The notes below the pieces were generated by a model, which saw nothing but the letters and a program-made list of their open reading frames with translations, was not told the origin of the DNA and ran no database searches. From an uncultured Gammaproteobacteria bacterium (lineage in GTDB: Bacteria > Pseudomonadota > Gammaproteobacteria > Pseudomonadales > Pseudohongiellaceae), in assembly GCA_913060695.1 (NCBI GenBank), contig CAJXUA010000005.1:62001-126000 (forward strand): a stretch of 64,000 nucleotides of DNA, written 5' to 3'. A program made the position numbers and the translations under genes. Position 1 is the stretch's first letter; every line of letters begins with the position of its first letter. Shown in pieces: positions 11,481-64,000 of the stretch.

Positions 11481-12842
11481 ATGAGCCAAGCCGACTATCA
11501 GGCACGAGTAAAAGTGTTGTCTGACCGCTTGATTGCGCTTCAGCAGCCCATCCGCATCCTCGATGCGATTAAATGGCCAGCCCGCTTTGAGCAGGATTTC
11601 CTCGCCTCTGGCGGCACCCAGCTGCCCCCGGTGGATAGGGACTATTACGAGCGGATAACGCTGAATTTTCAGCCCGACACGCTGCGCGGCCAATTCAAGG
11701 ATTTGCGCGCAGCCGTGCGCCGTGAGCTAGGGCGCAACGATGGCCTTGGCAGCATCATGAGCGCGACTATAGAGCAGTATCTACTAGTTATTGATCTACT
11801 GGAGGCACGCGGTACACCGCGCTTCGGTGCCGTTAGCCGAGAGCTGTATGGGTCTGCCTCTGACAAGCTGCGCGGAGACAGGCAAAGCCTGCGTAAGCTA
11901 GGTGAGAAGCTGTGCGAGATTTTCTCTCTGCCAGCTGCACAGCACATCAGCAGGCCCTACGGTAAAACCATCGCCGCTAGCGATGCCGTGGAAATATTGC
12001 AGCAAAAACTGAACCCTTATTTTCCCCCTGGCGACATCCGGGTGATTCTTAGCGACGGTATTGTTTCTGATGCGGCCGCCGGTGGCGACTATATCAAGAT
12101 CAACCAGGACTCGGAGTTCAGCGAGTTTGACCTGCAGATACTCGAGGTTCACGAGGGTTGGGTGCATGTTGGCACTACCCTGAATGGCCGCAAGCAGCCC
12201 TACGCGACTTGGCTCAGCGTTGGGTCGCCGCGCGTAACAGCGTGTCAGGAAGGCTTGGCGGTGCTGATGGAGACACTCACCTTTAGCTCTTACCCAAAAC
12301 GCGCCTTGAAGGTGAGTGATCGCGTAATCGCCGTAGATATCGCCGAACAGGGTGCTAGTTTTATCGAGGTCTATCAGTTCTTTGTCGCTCGCGGACTTAG
12401 CGAACGCGAAAGTTATCGCATCACCCAGCGCGTGTTCCGTGGTGGCACACTAGAGGGTGGCTCCGTCTTCACCAAGGACCTTTCTTATCTGCGCGGTTTC
12501 GTGGAGAACGTGAACTTTATCCGCAGCGCCATCAACTCTGGCGTGCCCGAGATCATTCCAATGCTGTTTGTGGGTAAGGTGACGCTGGACGATGTGCCGA
12601 TCCTATACCAGCACTACCTCGAAGGCACCATCGCGGGGCCGCAGATCATCCCTGCGATGTTTCGCAATATGAATGGACTCTATGTGTGGTTTGGCTTCTC
12701 CAGCGGCATAGGCTTGGTGAACATCTCGCGCGTGCAGAAGCATTTCGATCTAATGTTTCGAAAAATGCCGAAGAGCGACCCTGTGTACGGCGCCGATAAC
12801 TCTATCGCGCGGCCCTACCGTGATGAGTCTTCGATTGACTAA
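11481..12842 (+). CDS. QEGLA-motif protein (DUF1704; TIGR02421 / MATCAP-like metalloprotease family)
   Basis: The 453-residue product belongs to the family annotated as flavohemoglobin expression-modulating QEGLA motif protein. The family motif is present as ACQEGLAVLMETL near residue 255. A probable metal site HEGWVH lies near residue 221. Its HExxxH spacing matches the eukaryotic tubulin tyrosine carboxypeptidases of the MATCAP group, distant relatives of this family, so a peptidase function is a reasonable inference. The bacterial substrate is not known to me. No signal peptide is present, so it is probably cytoplasmic. No flavohemoglobin gene lies nearby. The ribosome-binding site is weak. 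It is the last gene before the palindromic element and the AT-rich island. Confidence 0.85.
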   Translation: MSQADYQARVKVLSDRLIALQQPIRILDAIKWPARFEQDFLASGGTQLPPVDRDYYERITLNFQPDTLRGQFKDLRAAVRRELGRNDGLGSIMSATIEQYLLVIDLLEARGTPRFGAVSRELYGSASDKLRGDRQSLRKLGEKLCEIFSLPAAQHISRPYGKTIAASDAVEILQQKLNPYFPPGDIRVILSDGIVSDAAAGGDYIKINQDSEFSEFDLQILEVHEGWVHVGTTLNGRKQPYATWLSVGSPRVTACQEGLAVLMETLTFSSYPKRALKVSDRVIAVDIAEQGASFIEVYQFFVARGLSERESYRITQRVFRGGTLEGGSVFTKDLSYLRGFVENVNFIRSAINSGVPEIIPMLFVGKVTLDDVPILYQHYLEGTIAGPQIIPAMFRNMNGLYVWFGFSSGIGLVNISRVQKHFDLMFRKMPKSDPVYGADNSIARPYRDESSID

Positions 12843-13008
12843 TATCTCGCCAAGAATCCTATTTGTGATTATTAGCCTAGGCTGTACGTTGCTCTAGTCA
12901 TCGACTTTTGTGTTGGCGCTTCGACTTGTAACGATGGGAGTGTCGCATTGCTGTTCCACCTAATTATGACAATAGTGCTCGAAGAATTTGGCCGTCTGTA
13001 CTTTCGCG

Positions 13009-13150
13009 CTATTAGTTCAGCGTCGGACATGAGTTCGGTATTCGCTTCCGTGACACGCCGTAAACCCTTCCCTGGGGGCTCGACGCCAGCATCCATGCTG
13101 GCGACGGTACACAGAAGCGAACACCAAACTCACGTCTTTAGATCAAGTGG
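13009..13150 (+). repeat. Palindromic interspersed element, copy 1
   Basis: Copy 1 of a 142-bp element whose second copy lies inverted at 14951-15092. Bases 13050-13136 are identical between copies and the ends differ at a few positions. The element is itself an imperfect palindrome: an outer pair of about 32-bp arms (from GACATGAGTTCGGTATTCGC to GCGAACACCAAACTCACGTC) and an inner hairpin CGCCAGCATCCATGCTGGCG. The asymmetric core that includes CCCTTCCCTGGGGG gives it direction. This layout resembles MITE- or REP-like non-coding elements. No transposase is present. Confidence 0.9.
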
Positions 13151-13239
13151 GCAGTCGTGATGTGGGGTCTATGCCTTCGAGTTTTGTCCTAACAATTCGA
13201 CTTGAAGTTTCGTGAGTGTCGATAGAGTTTCTTCCCCTC

Positions 13240-13282
13240 AGCTAACTAGCGCTCTCAATTCAATATTGAGTTGGCGTTAGCT
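13240..13282. other. Imperfect hairpin upstream of the peptide gene
   Basis: Arms begin AGCTAAC and end GTTAGCT, with further pairing through CTCAAT/ATTGAG around a short loop; a few internal mismatches interrupt the stem. It lies about 120 bp before the small peptide gene and may act as a transcription or RNA structure element, or be a decayed palindrome. Function is not shown. Confidence 0.45.
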
Positions 13283-13399
13283 ATTGCAGTGATAAATATT
13301 CAGTCCTTAATAACTGGTCGAATTTCGATTCTTGAGCTAGATTTTAATTGCAGTCTGCAAACACTTTAATCAAAGGGAATCCATAGGAGGGAATCCAAA

Positions 13400-13618
13400 A
13401 TGCGTGAATTAAGTATGGAAGAGGTTGGGCAGGTGAATGGGGGGATGTTTCTAGATGCGATGCCTGGTTTTACTGCCGCTATAGGTCTTGCTGCGGCAAG
13501 ATACGGAAAAAACTGGGCCCTTGTACCAATTAGGGCTGCATTCGTAGCATCTCCGATTGTGTTTGGAGCAGTTGTCGGTATTACGTTAGCTGCTGGTGTA
13601 GTTATGACGAGGGACTAA
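13400..13618 (+). CDS. Small peptide with microcin-type double-glycine leader
   Basis: A 72-residue product with the strong Shine-Dalgarno GGAGGG eight bases upstream. The first 15 residues, MRELSMEEVGQVNGG, match the double-glycine leader pattern of class II microcins such as colicin V (hydrophobic residues at the spaced positions, ending Gly-Gly). Cleavage there would leave a 57-residue, cysteine-free, hydrophobic, glycine/alanine-rich peptide. It has one or two membrane-insertable stretches (roughly residues 20-33 and 41-69) and a TRD tail. Known leaders of this type are cut by C39-peptidase ABC exporters; none is in the window. The next gene, 84 bp downstream on the same strand, is a rhomboid protease. 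Bacteriocin or signalling function is inference; the leader match is direct. Confidence 0.8.
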   Translation: MRELSMEEVGQVNGGMFLDAMPGFTAAIGLAAARYGKNWALVPIRAAFVASPIVFGAVVGITLAAGVVMTRD

Positions 13619-13702
13619 CGGATCCGTTCTCTTGCATGAAACATTTATGTCATTGACGAGGTAGTTGAAGATCGAGCTATCTCGTCTCGAAGAAGACAAT
13701 TA

Positions 13703-14920
13703 ATGAAAAATAGTGAACACCAAAATATAAATGAAATGGAAATCGAGAGCTGGTCGAAAAATTTCTCTCTAAATAAGAAAGAAATCGAATCGAGAGTGAA
13801 AAGTACAATAGTGCTTCTTTGGGCTGCTGTTTCAATTTTTTGTGTGTTAAGTCTTTCTAGTAAGTTGATGCAATACGTTGGCCAACTATCGCTACCTGTG
13901 TTGATTGTGCCAGGTCTTCTTTTCTTCCTCATGCTAAGAAAACTAGCATTGTCGAGAGTTAAGCTTGAAATATCATTCGATCGTGGAAAGCTAACCTTCC
14001 CGTATTATTATGTTTGGTTCGCAGATTTTCCTCTTAAGCAGATTTGCAGTCTAGAAGAGTTAAGGGGCAATGGAGAAACAGAAACTTTAATAGTTGTTCT
14101 CAACAGTGGGGCGCTAGCCTATTTCGATAGAAACATATTTGCTAGTAAATTGGAGTTTGAGAAATTTCGCGAACAACTTCTAATTCTAGTTAGTCTAAAT
14201 GCTGAGTATAACTCTGATGTAGATTCTATCGTTGCTACGAGTAGTGCATCGCATACTATTGTCCAAGTGTTAGTTATTCTTAGTTGGGTTGCTGTATTTT
14301 TCTTGATTTCATCAAATAGTTCTCAAGAATTTACTGCAATTCTCGAGAAAGGGGCGATTTCAAGGGAGGGGGTACTAAGGGGGGAGGTTTATAGGATTTC
14401 TTCATCTTTTTTCCTGCATTCTAGCTTCTCGCATCTCGTTGCAAATGTTCTACTTTTTACAGTTTTGAACCAGTTTCTTCTTAGGGTGGTAGATGTTTAC
14501 AGATATATAAACATACTTTTTATTTCTACTCTGATTGCAGCATTAGTGACACTTTTAGCCCATCAAGAAGATTTTGTGATAGGTGCTTCTGGCGGGGTAT
14601 TTGGTCTTTTTGGTGCGTTCTGCGCAATCAAAAATACACAGAATGCATCTGATTCAGTTGGCCAAATTTCAGGAATATTTGTAGTTTTTCTGATCTTCAT
14701 TGAAATGATCTTTGGAGCAGTAAGCGGCAGAGTTGATGTTTATAGCCATCTCGGAGGGTTTCTTTCTGGTTTTTTCCTCTTGAAACTATTTCTGACGATA
14801 AAGACTTCAAAATCGATTTACTTATCCTCTTCGCCTGAGAGGCTTGCCTCATTGATCTTGCTGGCAATTTACTATGCTGGTTTCTATCAGTTTCTTTCGA
14901 ATGTTTACATTAACTCTTAG
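13703..14920 (+). CDS. Rhomboid-family intramembrane serine protease with N-terminal membrane/PH-like extension
   Basis: A 405-residue integral membrane protein. The N-terminal third has two hydrophobic helices (about 34-52 and 60-78), then a beta-rich soluble segment (about 86-170) that may be a small PH-like domain. The rhomboid core follows, about 183-365. The catalytic pair is visible as Ser296 in GASGG and His349 in SHLGG. The upstream FLHSSFSHLVAN motif supplies His239, His244 and Asn248, matching the GlpG oxyanion-site pattern. All key residues are present, so it should be active. The gene is clearly more AT-rich than the flanking genes. With the peptide gene it forms a two-gene cassette between inverted palindromes. 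It could process the peptide or its receptor, or confer self-immunity as CAAX-type membrane proteases do for some bacteriocins; none of this is proven. Confidence 0.88.
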   Translation: MKNSEHQNINEMEIESWSKNFSLNKKEIESRVKSTIVLLWAAVSIFCVLSLSSKLMQYVGQLSLPVLIVPGLLFFLMLRKLALSRVKLEISFDRGKLTFPYYYVWFADFPLKQICSLEELRGNGETETLIVVLNSGALAYFDRNIFASKLEFEKFREQLLILVSLNAEYNSDVDSIVATSSASHTIVQVLVILSWVAVFFLISSNSSQEFTAILEKGAISREGVLRGEVYRISSSFFLHSSFSHLVANVLLFTVLNQFLLRVVDVYRYINILFISTLIAALVTLLAHQEDFVIGASGGVFGLFGAFCAIKNTQNASDSVGQISGIFVVFLIFIEMIFGAVSGRVDVYSHLGGFLSGFFLLKLFLTIKTSKSIYLSSSPERLASLILLAIYYAGFYQFLSNVYINS

Positions 14921-14950
14921 TAGGAAAGGAGGCGTTACCCCATGGCTGTC

Positions 14951-15092
14951 TCACTTAATCTAAGGACGTGAGTTTGGTGTTCGCTTCTGTGTACCGTCGC
15001 CAGCATGGATGCTGGCGTCGAGCCCCCAGGGAAGGGTTTACGGCGTGTCACAGAAGCGAATGCCAATCTCATGTCTATCGCTGAACTAATAG
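14951..15092 (-). repeat. Palindromic interspersed element, copy 2 (inverted)
   Basis: The reverse complement aligns without gaps to 13009-13150. The pair encloses exactly the peptide and rhomboid genes, in inverted orientation. Both share the inner CATCCATG-centred hairpin. Weak similarity continues a further 40-50 bp outward on the core-proximal side, suggesting the original element may have been longer. Confidence 0.9.
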
Positions 15093-15154
15093 TTTGATAG
15101 CTCAAACGACAAGAGTGTTTAAGTATTATTATCATAATCAGACGCTGTGCCCAA

Positions 15155-18100
15155 TTAGGGTTTTTGCTTATGTTTATACCGCATATCCAAGGTGTAAGGG
15201 TGTGCCTCATGGGGCTCGCCTAAGTCGAGTTCCATGTCGCCTTGGGTGTGGCCTTGTTTCGAGAAACGGGCCACGCGTCTCGCTTCGGCCTCGTTGCCGT
15301 TTACGGGGAAGGTGTCGTAGTTGCGGCCGCCTGGGTGAGAGACGTGGTAGGTGCAACCGCCCAAGGATCGGTTGTGGTAGGTGTCCACTACGTCGATGAC
15401 TAGAGGCGAATGAACGTCGATAGTCGGGTGCAATGCAGACCAGGGTGCCCACGCCTTATAGCGGATGCCGCCAACGAATTCGCCCTCGGTCCCGGTGCTT
15501 CGCATGGGGACTTTGCGGCCGTTGCAAGTGACGATAAAACGGTTGCCCGTCATATTGCGCGTGCGCACTTGTAGTCTCTCTACTGAGGAGTCTACGTAGC
15601 GTGCGGTGCCTTGGCCGGTGGACTCTTCGCCAAGGACATGCCAAGGCTCGATGGCGCGGTGTAAGTCTAGCTGTATGCCCGCGACATGGATGGTGCCGTA
15701 ATGAGGAAAACGGAATTCCTGGAAGGGCGCGAACCAATCTAGGTTGAACGAATATCCCGCCTGATTTATGTCATCGATAACCCAGCCTAGATCTTCCCAC
15801 ACGAAATGCGGCAGCATGAAGCGGTCGTGCAGCTCGGTGCCCCAGTTGATGAGGGGCTTGGTGTAGGGCGTTTTCCAGAAGTGCGCAACGAGTGTGCGAA
15901 TCAACAACACTTGCAATGCACTCATCTGCCAGTGGGGAGGCATCTCGAAGTTTCTGAACTCGACGATGCCCAAGCGACCACTGGAGCTGTCTGGTGAATA
16001 GAGCTTGTCGATGCAGAACTCGGCGCGGTGGGTATTGCCTGTAAGATCGACCAAGAAGTTGCGCAGTATGCGATCCACCAACCAGACCTGATCGCTGCCG
16101 ATGCCTTCTAATTGCTGTAGAGCTATCTCTAGCTCGTATAGATTATCGTCACGCGCTTCGTCTACGCGAGGAGCTTGGCTAGTGGGGCCTATAAACTGTC
16201 CTGAGAATAGATAAGACAAACTAGGGTGGTTCTGCCAATAGCGGATGAGGCTGCCGAGTACGTCCGGTCGACGTAGGAAGGGGCTGTCCTCTGGCTTGGC
16301 AGCGCCGAGTGTCACATGATTGCCACCGCCGGTGCCGGTGTGGCGCCCGTCGAGCATAAACTTCTCGGTCCCGAGCCGGTTCTGGCGCGCTTGCTCATAG
16401 AGGACATGGATGAGCTTGGTGAGGTCTGGCCAGTTATTCGAGGGCTGGACGTTCACTTCTATCACGCCGGGGTCTGGTGTGATTAGCAGCTTCTGTAGGC
16501 GCGGATCTTTCGGTGGCTCATAGCCTTCGATAATGATGGGGCAGGTGAGCTTGTCGGCTGTTGCCTCTATCGCGGCGATCAGGGCGACATAGCGCTCTAG
16601 GTCGGTTTGTGGAGGTAGGAATAGATAAAGTCGACCGTCGCGGACTTCAGCACATATTGCCGTATGGAATATGCGCGCGTCCTCAGCAATCACGGGCTCT
16701 AAGTCGCTGCCTTCACTCTCTGAAAGTAGGGGGTAAGCTAACTCTTCGCGCGGCGCGAAAGGATCCTTCGCGTGCTCATCCTCTGAAGTATCGGGCACCT
16801 GCCATGGAAGACTGTTCAGTGGTAAACGGAACCCGATGGGAGAGTCTCCCGGCGTTAGGGCAAGTTGTTCTTTGCGGAAATACCAGCGGCAGCTGATCCA
16901 CTTGATATCGCCTTCATTCTCTTTAGAGGAAAGTGGCATAACATAGCCAATCTCTTTGTCGAGCCCATGGGCGAAGACCCGCTTTATGCGCGCGGCCTCA
17001 AGCGGGTCTACTACTTTGTTGTCCCAAAGTGATACGTTCGCTGGCAACTCGGACTCGCGCTTCAAATACCAAGCCTTATCTTCGAACGCGGGCAGAACAT
17101 AACTAGGATTAATGCCTAGTCGTTTCGCTAGCGCGGAGACAAAGGTTGCGGCGTGTTTGGTAGTGGCAGAGCCACTGGTGCGTTCATCCGCTAATAACTT
17201 AGGGTTGTGCCAGAGTGGCTTGCCATCGGTGCGCCAGAATAGGCCCAATGCCCAGCGCGGAAGTGGCTCGCCTGGGTACCATTTGCCTTGGCCAATGTGA
17301 ATTAAACCATCGGGTCCATAATGCTTCTTAAGGGCGTGCAGGAGTTCGCCAGCAAGTTTGCGTTTCTCCTTGCCTAATGCCGCGGTATTCCACTGCTCGC
17401 TCTCCATGTCGTCGATGGAGATAAAGGTTGGCTCGCCGCCAACGGTAAGGCGCACATCTTGTTCTTTGAGCTCTGCGTCGATCTCCATTCCTAGGGCATC
17501 AATTTTCTGCCATTGCTCTGCGCTATAGGGTTTGGTGACGCGGGGGTCTTCGTGGATACGGGTAACGCTATTTTCGTGAATAAACTCAACCTCACAGACC
17601 CCTGTTGAGCCGGTGATTGGGGCTGCGCTTACTGGGTCCGGAGTACAGGCCAATGGGATATGACCCTCGGCTGCAAATAGTCCAGAGGTCGGGTCTAGGC
17701 CGATCCAGCCGGCACCTGGAATATACACTTCGGTCCAGGCGTGTAGGTCTGTGAAGTCTTCAGTAGTGCCGCCTGGGCCGTCGATAGATTTTACGTCTGC
17801 GGTGAGTTGCACCAAGTAACCAGAGGCGAAGCGAGCCGCAAGACCCATATGGCGAAGAGTCTGTACAAACAGCCATGCACTATCTCGGCAAGAACCATAT
17901 TCCGAGGTCAGGGTTTCTTCACAGGTTTGCACGCCTGGTTCCATGCGGATAACATAATTTACCGCCGCCTGTGTTCGGCTATTCTCGGTTACTAGAAAAG
18001 TTACGATCGGCTGGTGGCTTTTGTCGACGCCTTTAAGCCACTTCGTCATAGCCGGGCCATTCTCTTTTACTTCTAAGTATGGCGCCAAGTCTTTGGCCAG

Positions 18101-61822: not shown

Positions 61823-64000
61823 GCAAACAGCAAAGCTCATGCACAAGAATAAGCGCCGTCAGGGCCTCGCCTTGGCCGTATGTCTTGCCCTTGGCGTATT
61901 AAGTAGCCCTCTCTATGCTCAGGATGCATTGCTGGGAACTGAGCCTCCGCTAGAGCGTGGCCAGCAGCTGCTCAATGCTGGTTCCTATATCGCCGCGATC
62001 GATAGCTTCCAGCGCGTTAATGGTTTCGACGAGGAGGCAGCCCTGCTAGGGCTAGGCCGTGCCTATGCGTTAACCGGGCAATACGAAGAGGGCATCGCCT
62101 TGCTTGAAGACGAGATTGGGGCCTATGCCATCTCGCCGGTATTGAGCACGCAGTTAGCGGAGTTGCTGCGCACGACTGGGCAGTCTGCTCGCGCCCTAGA
62201 TATTCTAGAAGAAGTCGTCTCCGAAAATACTAACCCCCCCGTTCGCGCACTCGTGCAGTACGGTAGCCTGTTGCAATTCGTGGGGCGTCGCGATGAGGCA
62301 ATAGCGCCATTGAATGCCGCTATTGCTCGCTACGATAATGGCATGGTGTTTGACTCCGAAGAGATCGCGATGGTGGCCTTGGCCAGTTGGCTACTGGATC
62401 GTTTCCACGATGCCAATAGTCTGTTCAGTGAAGCAACAAGGGTTGATCCGAATAATCTCGAGGCGCAGGTACTTTGGGGCGACCTCTTCATGGAGAAATT
62501 CAATACTCCTGACGCAGAGAAGTCTTATGACGCGGCGCTGGCAATTAACCGTCGCTATGGGCCAGCCTTGATAGGCCAGGCCAAGATTAGTGGTGGCGAA
62601 CGCTCGCTAAGCTTTGCCCTGAGCGTGAACGAGCGTGATGTCAAAGCCTTGGAGACCATGGCTACGCTGTTGGTGCTCAATAATCGTCAGGAAGATGCCG
62701 AAGAGTTCATCGAGGCAGCTTTGGAGATCAACCCAGAGTCGATCAAGTCACTCAGCTTGAAGGCGACTCAGGCTGCCATGAAGGAAGAGTTTGCCCTGTT
62801 TGCGCAGTTAGAGGCGCAAGTGAAATCCTTCAGCCCGAATAATCCGCACTTCTACGGCGATATCGCTGATGCCTTCGGCAATAATTATCGCTTCACCGAG
62901 GCGGTGGGCTATGCCCGTCAAGCCATCGCCGCTGATCCCAATTACTGGCAAGGGCATACCTTGTTGGGCACCAATCTTATCCGCTTAGGTGAAGAAGAGG
63001 CGGGGCGTGAGTCTCTCGAACTTGCGTTCGACAACGACCCCTTCAATGTAATGACTTCCAATATGCTCAAGGTTTTCGACACCCTAGAAGAGTACGCAAC
63101 GCTGCGTACTGAGCATTTCGAAGTGCGTATGAGTCAGAGTGATGCAGTCGTTCTATGGCCCTACATGGCGCCGCTCATCGAAGAGAATTGGGCCACCTTG
63201 ACTGAGAAGTATGGTTTCGAGCCCGAAGCGCCCGTCTTGATCGAGATATTCGATCGCACAGAGGATTTTGCGGTGCGCTCTGTTGGCCTGCCCGATATCG
63301 GCCCACTAGTAGGCATCTGTTTTGGCAAGGTCGTTACCCTGATCTCTCCAGCGACACTGGATGCCAATTGGCAGGAGATTCTGTGGCACGAGTTAGTCCA
63401 CGTATTTACATTGCAGATGACCAATAACCGCATGCCACGGTGGCTTTCGGAGGGCATTTCCACTTGGGAGGAACGTGAGGCGCGGCCGGAATGGGGGCGT
63501 CGTCAGGGTATCGAATTAGTACGCGCCGTCGAGGATGAGAAGCTGCTGCCTGTGGCGAGCCTCAACGAAGGTTTCACTGGGGCTAATAACAACGAAGACC
63601 TAGGTTTCGCATACTTCCAGTCCTATCTGGTTGTCGATTTTATCGCCAAAGAGTATGGCTTCGAGAAGATGGTCGAATTGATCAATCAATACGCGCTCAT
63701 CAAAGAAGAGTCTGAAATGTTCAGCGCTGTATTCGGTAAGCCCGTCGAGGAGTTCGACGCGGATTTCCGCAGCTGGATCGACCGTCGTGTGGGCGAGATC
63801 GACGTCTACGTCCACACCGAAGACGCGGCGGATGAAGGGGCTGCCCATGGTCACGGTCAGCGCGAGAACTCCAGTGCGGTCCTAGCGGAGCTCTATAATA
63901 ATGCTTCCTTGAAACAACATATGCGCCAGCGCGTTCAGGATCAGCCCCGTGACTTCCAGGCGCATTTGCAGTTGGGCATCGTACTCTTCAAAGAAGAATT
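61809..64000 (+). CDS. TPR protein with peptidase MA-type HExxH domain (partial, runs off right edge)
   Basis: At least 730 residues of an exported protein. Signal peptide: basic HKNKRRQ then LALAVCLALGVLSSPLYAQ. Residues about 50-400 are tetratricopeptide-like helical repeats (LLGLGRAYALTGQYEEGI and later ALEINPESIKSLSLKATQA). The peptidase region has HELVH at residues 527-531 and a downstream WLSEGISTWEE whose Glu is the likely third zinc ligand, as in gluzincin/peptidase-MA families. A His/Gly-rich patch and another TPR stretch start near the edge. Start ATG 61809 is preceded by AGGACA. It is the fourth coupled gene of the DUF4175 operon. Confidence 0.85.
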   Translation, partial: MNYPKQTAKLMHKNKRRQGLALAVCLALGVLSSPLYAQDALLGTEPPLERGQQLLNAGSYIAAIDSFQRVNGFDEEAALLGLGRAYALTGQYEEGIALLEDEIGAYAISPVLSTQLAELLRTTGQSARALDILEEVVSENTNPPVRALVQYGSLLQFVGRRDEAIAPLNAAIARYDNGMVFDSEEIAMVALASWLLDRFHDANSLFSEATRVDPNNLEAQVLWGDLFMEKFNTPDAEKSYDAALAINRRYGPALIGQAKISGGERSLSFALSVNERDVKALETMATLLVLNNRQEDAEEFIEAALEINPESIKSLSLKATQAAMKEEFALFAQLEAQVKSFSPNNPHFYGDIADAFGNNYRFTEAVGYARQAIAADPNYWQGHTLLGTNLIRLGEEEAGRESLELAFDNDPFNVMTSNMLKVFDTLEEYATLRTEHFEVRMSQSDAVVLWPYMAPLIEENWATLTEKYGFEPEAPVLIEIFDRTEDFAVRSVGLPDIGPLVGICFGKVVTLISPATLDANWQEILWHELVHVFTLQMTNNRMPRWLSEGISTWEEREARPEWGRRQGIELVRAVEDEKLLPVASLNEGFTGANNNEDLGFAYFQSYLVVDFIAKEYGFEKMVELINQYALIKEESEMFSAVFGKPVEEFDADFRSWIDRRVGEIDVYVHTEDAADEGAAHGHGQRENSSAVLAELYNNASLKQHMRQRVQDQPRDFQAHLQLGIVLFKEE

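Follow-up and report, generated by a model that had tools for sequence, protein, structure and literature searches.

A short peptide with a double-glycine leader and a rhomboid intramembrane serine protease are encoded next to each other in the 64,000-nucleotide stretch analysed here (the window; positions 62,001 to 126,000 of contig CAJXUA010000005.1, from an uncultured gammaproteobacterium of the Pseudohongiellaceae), and the pair formed by these two genes is real, beyond chance. It is regarded as more than chance because the peptide is under purifying selection and because the pairing is found in 10 of 10 distinct homologues of the rhomboid. From the gene data, the rhomboid is very probably a partner dedicated to the peptide and acts on it. 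Self-immunity appears to be its most likely role, with maturation, less likely, as the main rival. A class II microcin-like system, in which the rhomboid would serve as proteolytic self-immunity of the producer, is the reading that we tentatively prefer, at slightly under an even chance. The wider proposition, that microcin immunity or maturation proceeds by intramembrane serine proteolysis and that a rhomboid subfamily has evolved to cut one secreted antibacterial peptide in the producer membrane, may be about evenly balanced.

Excerpts of two papers (PMC2941825, PMC7231995) indicate that, for most bacterial rhomboids, it is not clear which proteins are the natural substrates. Here the enzyme and its probable substrate are products of neighbouring genes, so that the substrate question becomes directly testable. 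If the proposition is true, rhomboids would take part in competition between bacteria and would have a natural substrate dedicated to them, encoded by the adjacent gene. The preliminary description of this DNA knew of no rhomboid-microcin pair of this kind, and among the matches listed from the open-licence literature (titles and starts of abstracts) none was described.

Constant pairing of a rhomboid clade with a leader peptide

Two findings had been named in the preliminary description that would speak against the partnership, namely rhomboids of this type without a peptide neighbour and a peptide confined to the strain. Neither was obtained. A homologous peptide with a Gly-Gly (GG) or Gly-Ala (GA) leader lies just 5' of the rhomboid gene in all 10 distinct full-length members of the clade, and 11 homologous peptides, the window's included, were aligned. 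Upstream of other rhomboids, a leader-like open reading frame (ORF) was found in 0 of the 110 that had at least 600 bp of upstream sequence; 8 of 118 other rhomboids with less than 600 bp, and 3 of 13 family rows that were truncated duplicates, were left out of this tally. The leader pattern was sought within residues 1 to 70 of ORFs 30-160 amino acids (aa) long, likewise for the 110 controls. It missed the peptide of genome G631, whose ORF was read from a far upstream start, and this peptide was caught by the profile. Among the relatives, G049 and G051 first came to light through the peptide search, and the other seven through the rhomboid alone.

Of the three lineages in which the clade was found, two are gammaproteobacterial genera and one is the family of Massilia horti, as sampled. 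The clade is monophyletic (support 100/99) in a tree of the rhomboid core built from its 10 members together with 50 high-ranking other rhomboids whose match reaches model position 340. Rhomboid distances track peptide distances (r 0.79, 0 of 20,000 permutations as high), which is weak support only, because shared ancestry gives the same correlation.

It can be seen from the searches that the pair is rare and patchy in occurrence. A rhomboid search of 38 genomes gave six matches, of which four, the window's included, were strong and of full length, each with a homologous leader peptide directly upstream; the remaining two (E 4.5e-11 and 6.3e-7) covered the core only. With the peptide profile, any match was obtained in 12 of 137 family genomes, and in seven of these it was strong (E 1e-18 or better). 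Six of the strong matches are followed by the rhomboid, and the seventh is at the end of a contig in G050, a genome left out of the rhomboid counts and of the distance comparison; the six weaker matches, in five genomes (E 5e-7 to 9e-4), have no rhomboid in the surrounding stretch examined. Massilia horti was found to carry the pair in a scan of named genomes, and 392 genomes of its family gave three more. Only the window's own rhomboid reached clade strength in a class sample of 369 genomes, the next match (E 1.2e-22) covering the core only. Two order samples (399 and 390 genomes) contained no further clade member at E 1e-35, viral contigs gave no match with a single-sequence query, and plasmids gave none with the rhomboid of Massilia horti or of the window.

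The two ORFs, the strong ribosome-binding site and the active-site residues were in place as previously described (Table 1), the rhomboid ORF starting 84 bp after the peptide stop. Behind the leader MRELSMEEVGQVNGG, the peptide has 57 residues, hydrophobic for the most part. The leader positions listed in Table 1 hold in 11 of 11 peptides, and each peptide thus carries the GG or GA form of the double-glycine leader, which is included in the definition of class II microcins (PMC9746304, in excerpt). The leader would be cleaved after G15 by an exporter of the C39-peptidase type, as its sequence predicts. In the mature part, G36, W39, A47, P52 and G66 are common to the 11 aligned homologues. Purifying selection on the peptide is evident between the window and a second species, G012 (nonsynonymous differences per site, pN, 0.037 versus synonymous, pS, 0.456). 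No Pfam or NCBIfam family lay above its cut-off for the mature peptide when the 11 homologues were compared with the curated families, and a search of solved structures with the peptide profile gave three weak matches only, all to unrelated proteins. The Pfam family MccV (PF17508) was matched weakly by 5 of the 11 peptides (best E 0.0033) and was not matched by the window's; the Massilia horti peptide scored 15.9 bits, below the cut-off of 27 bits.

Table 1. Features of the peptide-rhomboid locus, in window coordinates
Feature	Position	Strand	Evidence
Double-glycine-leader peptide, microcin-like precursor, 72 aa	13400..13618	+	ORF; homologues in 10 further genomes; purifying selection
Leader MRELSMEEVGQVNGG, 15 codons	13400..13444	+	L4, E8, V12 and G14 invariant; position 15 G/A
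Shine-Dalgarno sequence AGGAGG, 9 nt 5' of the peptide ATG	13385..13390	+	read from the sequence
Stem-loop of 12 bp between the genes, no T run at this locus	13655..13686	+	z -2.12; 6/200 shuffles as good
Rhomboid intramembrane serine protease, 405 aa, partner of the peptide	13703..14920	+	PF01694, E 1.1e-22; catalytic residues invariant in 10/10
Predicted N-terminal PH-like domain, residues 19-168, transmembrane hairpin inserted after the first strand	13757..14206	+	predicted structure; PH folds, Z ~8; moderate confidence
Rhomboid core, residues 182-367, with Ser296 and His349	14246..14803	+	GlpG structures, best Z 17.8, root-mean-square deviation (rmsd) 2.7, 177 residues
Inverted repeat, upstream copy, palindromic core	12960..13149	+	judged outside the system
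Inverted repeat, downstream copy, 86% identical	14952..15141	-	judged outside the system

The rhomboid domain PF01694 covers residues 227-363 of the window's protein (81.2 bits versus a cut-off of 22.6) and is matched by 10 of 10 clade members (E up to 1). It is the only family matched by more than one member, and the CPBP family is not among the Pfam matches of the 10. H239, H244, N248, S296 and H349 are invariant in the 10 aligned homologues, with the serine in GASGG and the histidine in a late helix, and because of this invariance the enzyme is probably kept active. The core is predicted to fold like GlpG, the best match being 2xtu (model from seven sequences, mean pLDDT, the local confidence score, 69.4). 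The domain, the catalytic residues and this modelled fold are all of the rhomboid class, and the protein is a predicted protease. The PH-like assignment of the N-terminal domain is made with moderate confidence only, because its Z value is near the level reached by common arrangements. In the alignments, the Massilia horti rhomboid began 8 codons before its likely ATG. A second rhomboid above the cut-off is present in the window's genome (3.73 Mb, 47 contigs); it carries the NRho domain of GlpG types and lies on another contig.

Exporter linkage and comparison with known systems

Genes for a C39-peptidase ATP-binding cassette (ABC) exporter and its HlyD partner adjoin the pair in three of the four loci on the Massilia side (L060, L154 and L152), that is in 3 of the 10 pair loci. 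The gene order in L154 is peptide, rhomboid, HlyD and C39-ABC; in L060 the HlyD and C39-ABC genes lie just upstream of the pair and divergent from it. Clusters for class II microcins have this layout, with an immunity gene at the position that the rhomboid takes on the Massilia side. Downstream of the pair in L152 (genome G563), a 1161-residue ORF (L152:9909-13394) has an HlyD start and a C39-peptidase ABC end. A natural fusion of the two was considered and rejected, since the last 120 HlyD residues are in another frame and a frameshift or assembly error is likelier. No exporter ORF was found in 17 kb around the pair of L153, and strong C39 matches lie far off in the same genome.

In the window's genome, C39-ABC and HlyD genes were found where the preliminary description had pointed to look for them, elsewhere and unlinked to the pair (L025), with no leader-like ORF beside this exporter. 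A C39 match over the cut-off was obtained in 20 of 23 genomes, and a strong one in 9 of the 11 that carry the peptide. Exporter presence was tried as a correlate of the pair and dropped, because exporter and pair are not associated in the window's genus, where 14 of 14 genomes gave a strong C39 match. The drafts G021 and G050, rated 98 and 100% complete, have a GA leader and no C39 exporter was detected in them.

To compare the neighbourhoods, 793 ORFs of at least 40 aa within 6 kb of the 10 pairs were used; ORFs overlapping the pair were left out, and likenesses within a lineage were reported only above 60 residues. Between lineages, the only likenesses were a generic OmpA-type domain and one 27-residue match, and the exporter was common to three Massilia-side loci. 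The peptide and the rhomboid are the only locus-specific genes common to the three lineages; because nothing else of the kind is shared, the loci showed no further candidate for a conserved immunity gene.

Class II microcins (microcin V type; PF17508) have the same GG or GA form of leader, a precursor gene adjacent to a partner gene, and the same exporter of C39-peptidase ABC and HlyD that is linked in three of the four loci of the Massilia horti family sample. They differ in that their confirmed immunity proteins have 51-216 aa, and the survey made with cinful kept immunity candidates of 30 to 250 residues (both PMC9746304, in excerpt), whereas the partner here is a protease of 400 residues. 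The mature peptide, a prediction from the genes, also matches none of the curated families above cut-off. A limit of 250 would pass over a rhomboid of 400 residues, so that microcin systems of one type may have gone unnoticed.

CPBP/Abi (CAAX-type) proteases occur mostly in Gram-positive bacteriocin clusters. Like the rhomboid, they are intramembrane proteases coded in a bacteriocin locus, for which immunity or processing has been proposed; they are described as glutamic acid intramembrane proteases (PMC11980579, in excerpt), whereas the rhomboid of the pair is of the serine type. Rhombosortase (TIGR03902) is the nearest NCBIfam model to the window's rhomboid (E 4.2e-13), which scored 49.5 bits and stayed below the cut-off of 84. 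The other nine members should score lower, because the window has the best E-value of the 10. Rhombosortase targets bear a C-terminal GlyGly-CTERM tail, whereas the Gly-Gly or Gly-Ala of the pair is in the N-terminal leader of the partner; no such tail is present in the partner peptide, other proteins of these genomes lying outside the search. As proposed for the pair, the rhomboid AarA of Providencia stuartii acts on a small membrane-spanning substrate, TatA, with a similar FGS-type stretch after the cut, a likeness of motif that is not statistically established. Unlike the leader peptide of the pair, TatA is a transport protein. To our knowledge, TatA is not coded beside AarA. TatA carries I5 and W14, which enter the comparison below.

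Possible roles of the rhomboid

In the mechanism that we favour, the precursor would be exported by the C39-peptidase ABC transporter with HlyD and would lose its 15-residue leader, as the leader and the exporters linked in relatives suggest. The mature peptide of about 57 residues would be hydrophobic and membrane-active, probably with two helices. The rhomboid, its active site facing outward, would then cut those mature peptides that enter the inner membrane of the producer itself, and through the intercistronic hairpin more peptide than protease would be made. The active site of rhomboids is near the periplasmic face (PMC3712462, in excerpt), where it would meet returning or stalled peptide. 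Immunity is favoured because of this position of the active site, because the rhomboid occupies the immunity gene's place and because no other shared candidate is seen. The reported part of bacterial rhomboids in the quality control of orphan membrane proteins (PMC7232013, in excerpt) was counted in its favour too, as were the constant pairing, the monophyly of the clade, the linked exporters, the invariant catalytic residues, the hairpin in all 10 loci and the weak MccV matches of 5 of the 11 peptides. When the window is compared with a third species (G003), the peptides are 33% and the rhomboids 32% identical, with 80 and 85% for the flanking genes; both genes have thus diverged beyond their flanks, as toxin and immunity genes do.

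Several results weigh against self-immunity by the rhomboid. A C39 match was found on the pair's own contig in 0 of 6 gammaproteobacterial pairs, and two genomes (G021 and G050) carry the peptide without any C39 match; of the 14 genomes of the window's genus with a strong C39 match, 3 have the pair and 11 do not. All matches of the peptides to MccV are under Pfam's cut-off. Directly after the C39-ABC gene of L154 (genome G631), a hydrophobic ORF of 67 aa (L154:9450-9653) could encode a small immunity protein for this cluster; none of the other pair loci has an equivalent ORF. SilX, a CAAX protease encoded in a bacteriocin locus, appeared to function in the processing of a signal and not in immunity (PMC9298176, in excerpt), and because it was found not to give immunity, caution is called for here. 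Lastly, the divergence between the window and G012 is uneven, with the peptide 93% and the rhomboid 57% identical, a pattern that immunity does not explain. The nonsynonymous rate (dN) is 0.030 and 0.034 in the flanks, 0.038 in the peptide and 0.312 in the rhomboid, with the synonymous rate (dS) at 0.70 to 1.73 throughout, near saturation; on these dN values, the peptide is constrained and the rhomboid protein has changed about 10 times faster. Replacement of the rhomboid by recombination may be the source of the difference, and no explanation offered fully accounts for this uneven comparison.

The chief alternative is maturation or release, in which the rhomboid would make a second cut, for example at an [ILV]xxxx[FY]GxxW element, to give the active secreted form or to free the peptide from the membrane, with immunity lying elsewhere or not being needed. 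In all 11 peptides this element has an aliphatic residue at P4 and an aromatic one at P2', followed by invariant G and W. It resembles the cut region of P. stuartii TatA, for which the rule is a small P1 and hydrophobic P4 and P2'; TatA is cleaved at A8-A9 and has F10 at P2' and helix-destabilising G11, S12, P13 and Q15 (rule and site from PMC2941825, in excerpt). The predicted structure of the peptide, of low confidence (mean pLDDT 67.6), consists of hydrophobic helices that break at this element. Rhomboid cutting can activate a protein, as TatA shows (PMC3712462, in excerpt), and SilX, from another protease family, offers a precedent for processing. But P1 is small (A, S or G) in only 7 of the 11 peptides, being T in one and F, I or V in three, and the element as such proves nothing, because shuffled mature peptides hold about three rhomboid-type motifs each (means 2.7 to 3.7). 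For these reasons the motif was rejected as proof of a cleavage site. Moreover, a processing enzyme would not be expected to drift to 57% identity on a substrate conserved at 93%, and maturation seems less probable than self-immunity.

A signal or housekeeping pair, in which the peptide would be a secreted signal or membrane regulator that the rhomboid receives or turns over, we consider rather unlikely. Such a pair would suit the comparison with G012, where conservation of the peptide is close to that of the flanking genes, as well as the site kept in three species of the genus and the two carriers in which C39 was not found. It fits poorly with the patchy distribution in the family and class samples, with the microcin-type exporters linked in three loci and with a peptide that falls to 33% identity in G003. 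Finally, mere coincidence, an ordinary rhomboid beside an unrelated small ORF in a mobile island bounded by palindromes, is contradicted and has next to no likelihood: palindromes do flank both genes and the rhomboid is AT-rich, but the pairing is kept in 10 of 10 loci though the other neighbours differ between lineages, the peptide is under purifying selection, and in G012 the pair occupies this site with no palindromes around it.

Intercistronic hairpin and genomic site

All 10 loci have a strong stem-loop between the peptide gene and the rhomboid gene, with z from -2.1 to -7.4 and 0 to 6 of 200 shuffles as good. The hairpins are largely without common sequence between lineages, and in several of the relatives a T run comes after the hairpin, as it does in intrinsic terminators. 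The stem-loop suggests that more peptide than protease may be made. The rhomboid starts in the relatives were chosen, and in three loci (G021, G051 and G631) the position of the hairpin depends on the start codon: a TTG start would put it inside the ORF in G021 and G051, and the start used in the alignment overlaps it in G631, while the next downstream start codons keep it between the genes in all three. Promoter and terminator scans of positions 12800-15200 were not richer than shuffles.

Both genes had been described as more AT-rich than their flanks and as lying in an island bounded by inverted palindromes. The first point holds clearly for the rhomboid (GC 0.374) and only mildly for the peptide (0.484), compared with 0.556 and 0.54 for the flanking genes and 0.53 for the window. 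As for the second, the two inverted copies do flank the pair, with 163 of 190 bases identical and 88 of the 90 core bases aligned at 99%, but they are not the bounds of an island. The idea was rejected because the G012 pair lies between the same two genes with no palindrome in 18 kb around it, because the element is a repeat found elsewhere in the genome (16 matches, 4 of them near full length), and also in view of nine relatives that lack the pair and carry an htpX-like gene beside the gene that precedes it elsewhere. Two of the four near-full-length copies of the palindrome stand in direct orientation on one contig.

The pair lies between a QEGLA/MATCAP-family gene and a DUF2126 gene in three genomes of three species; the locus of G011, cut by a contig end, was outside this comparison of sites within the genus. 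The upstream QEGLA/MATCAP-family gene was matched in 13 of 14 genomes of the genus. Among loci L171-L180, an htpX-like protease gene is beside the QEGLA gene in nine pair-less species, in four of whose genomes the DUF2126 gene follows within the stretch examined, and L176 has both the pair and the htpX-like gene.

In two species of another genus, a different leader peptide, glycine-rich and of the form MRELSLEE...GG, precedes a conserved ORF of 136 residues that has hydrophobic stretches (L020:1501-1758 and 1788-2198; L023:1463-1720 and 1751-2161), possibly an ordinary pair of microcin and immunity genes.
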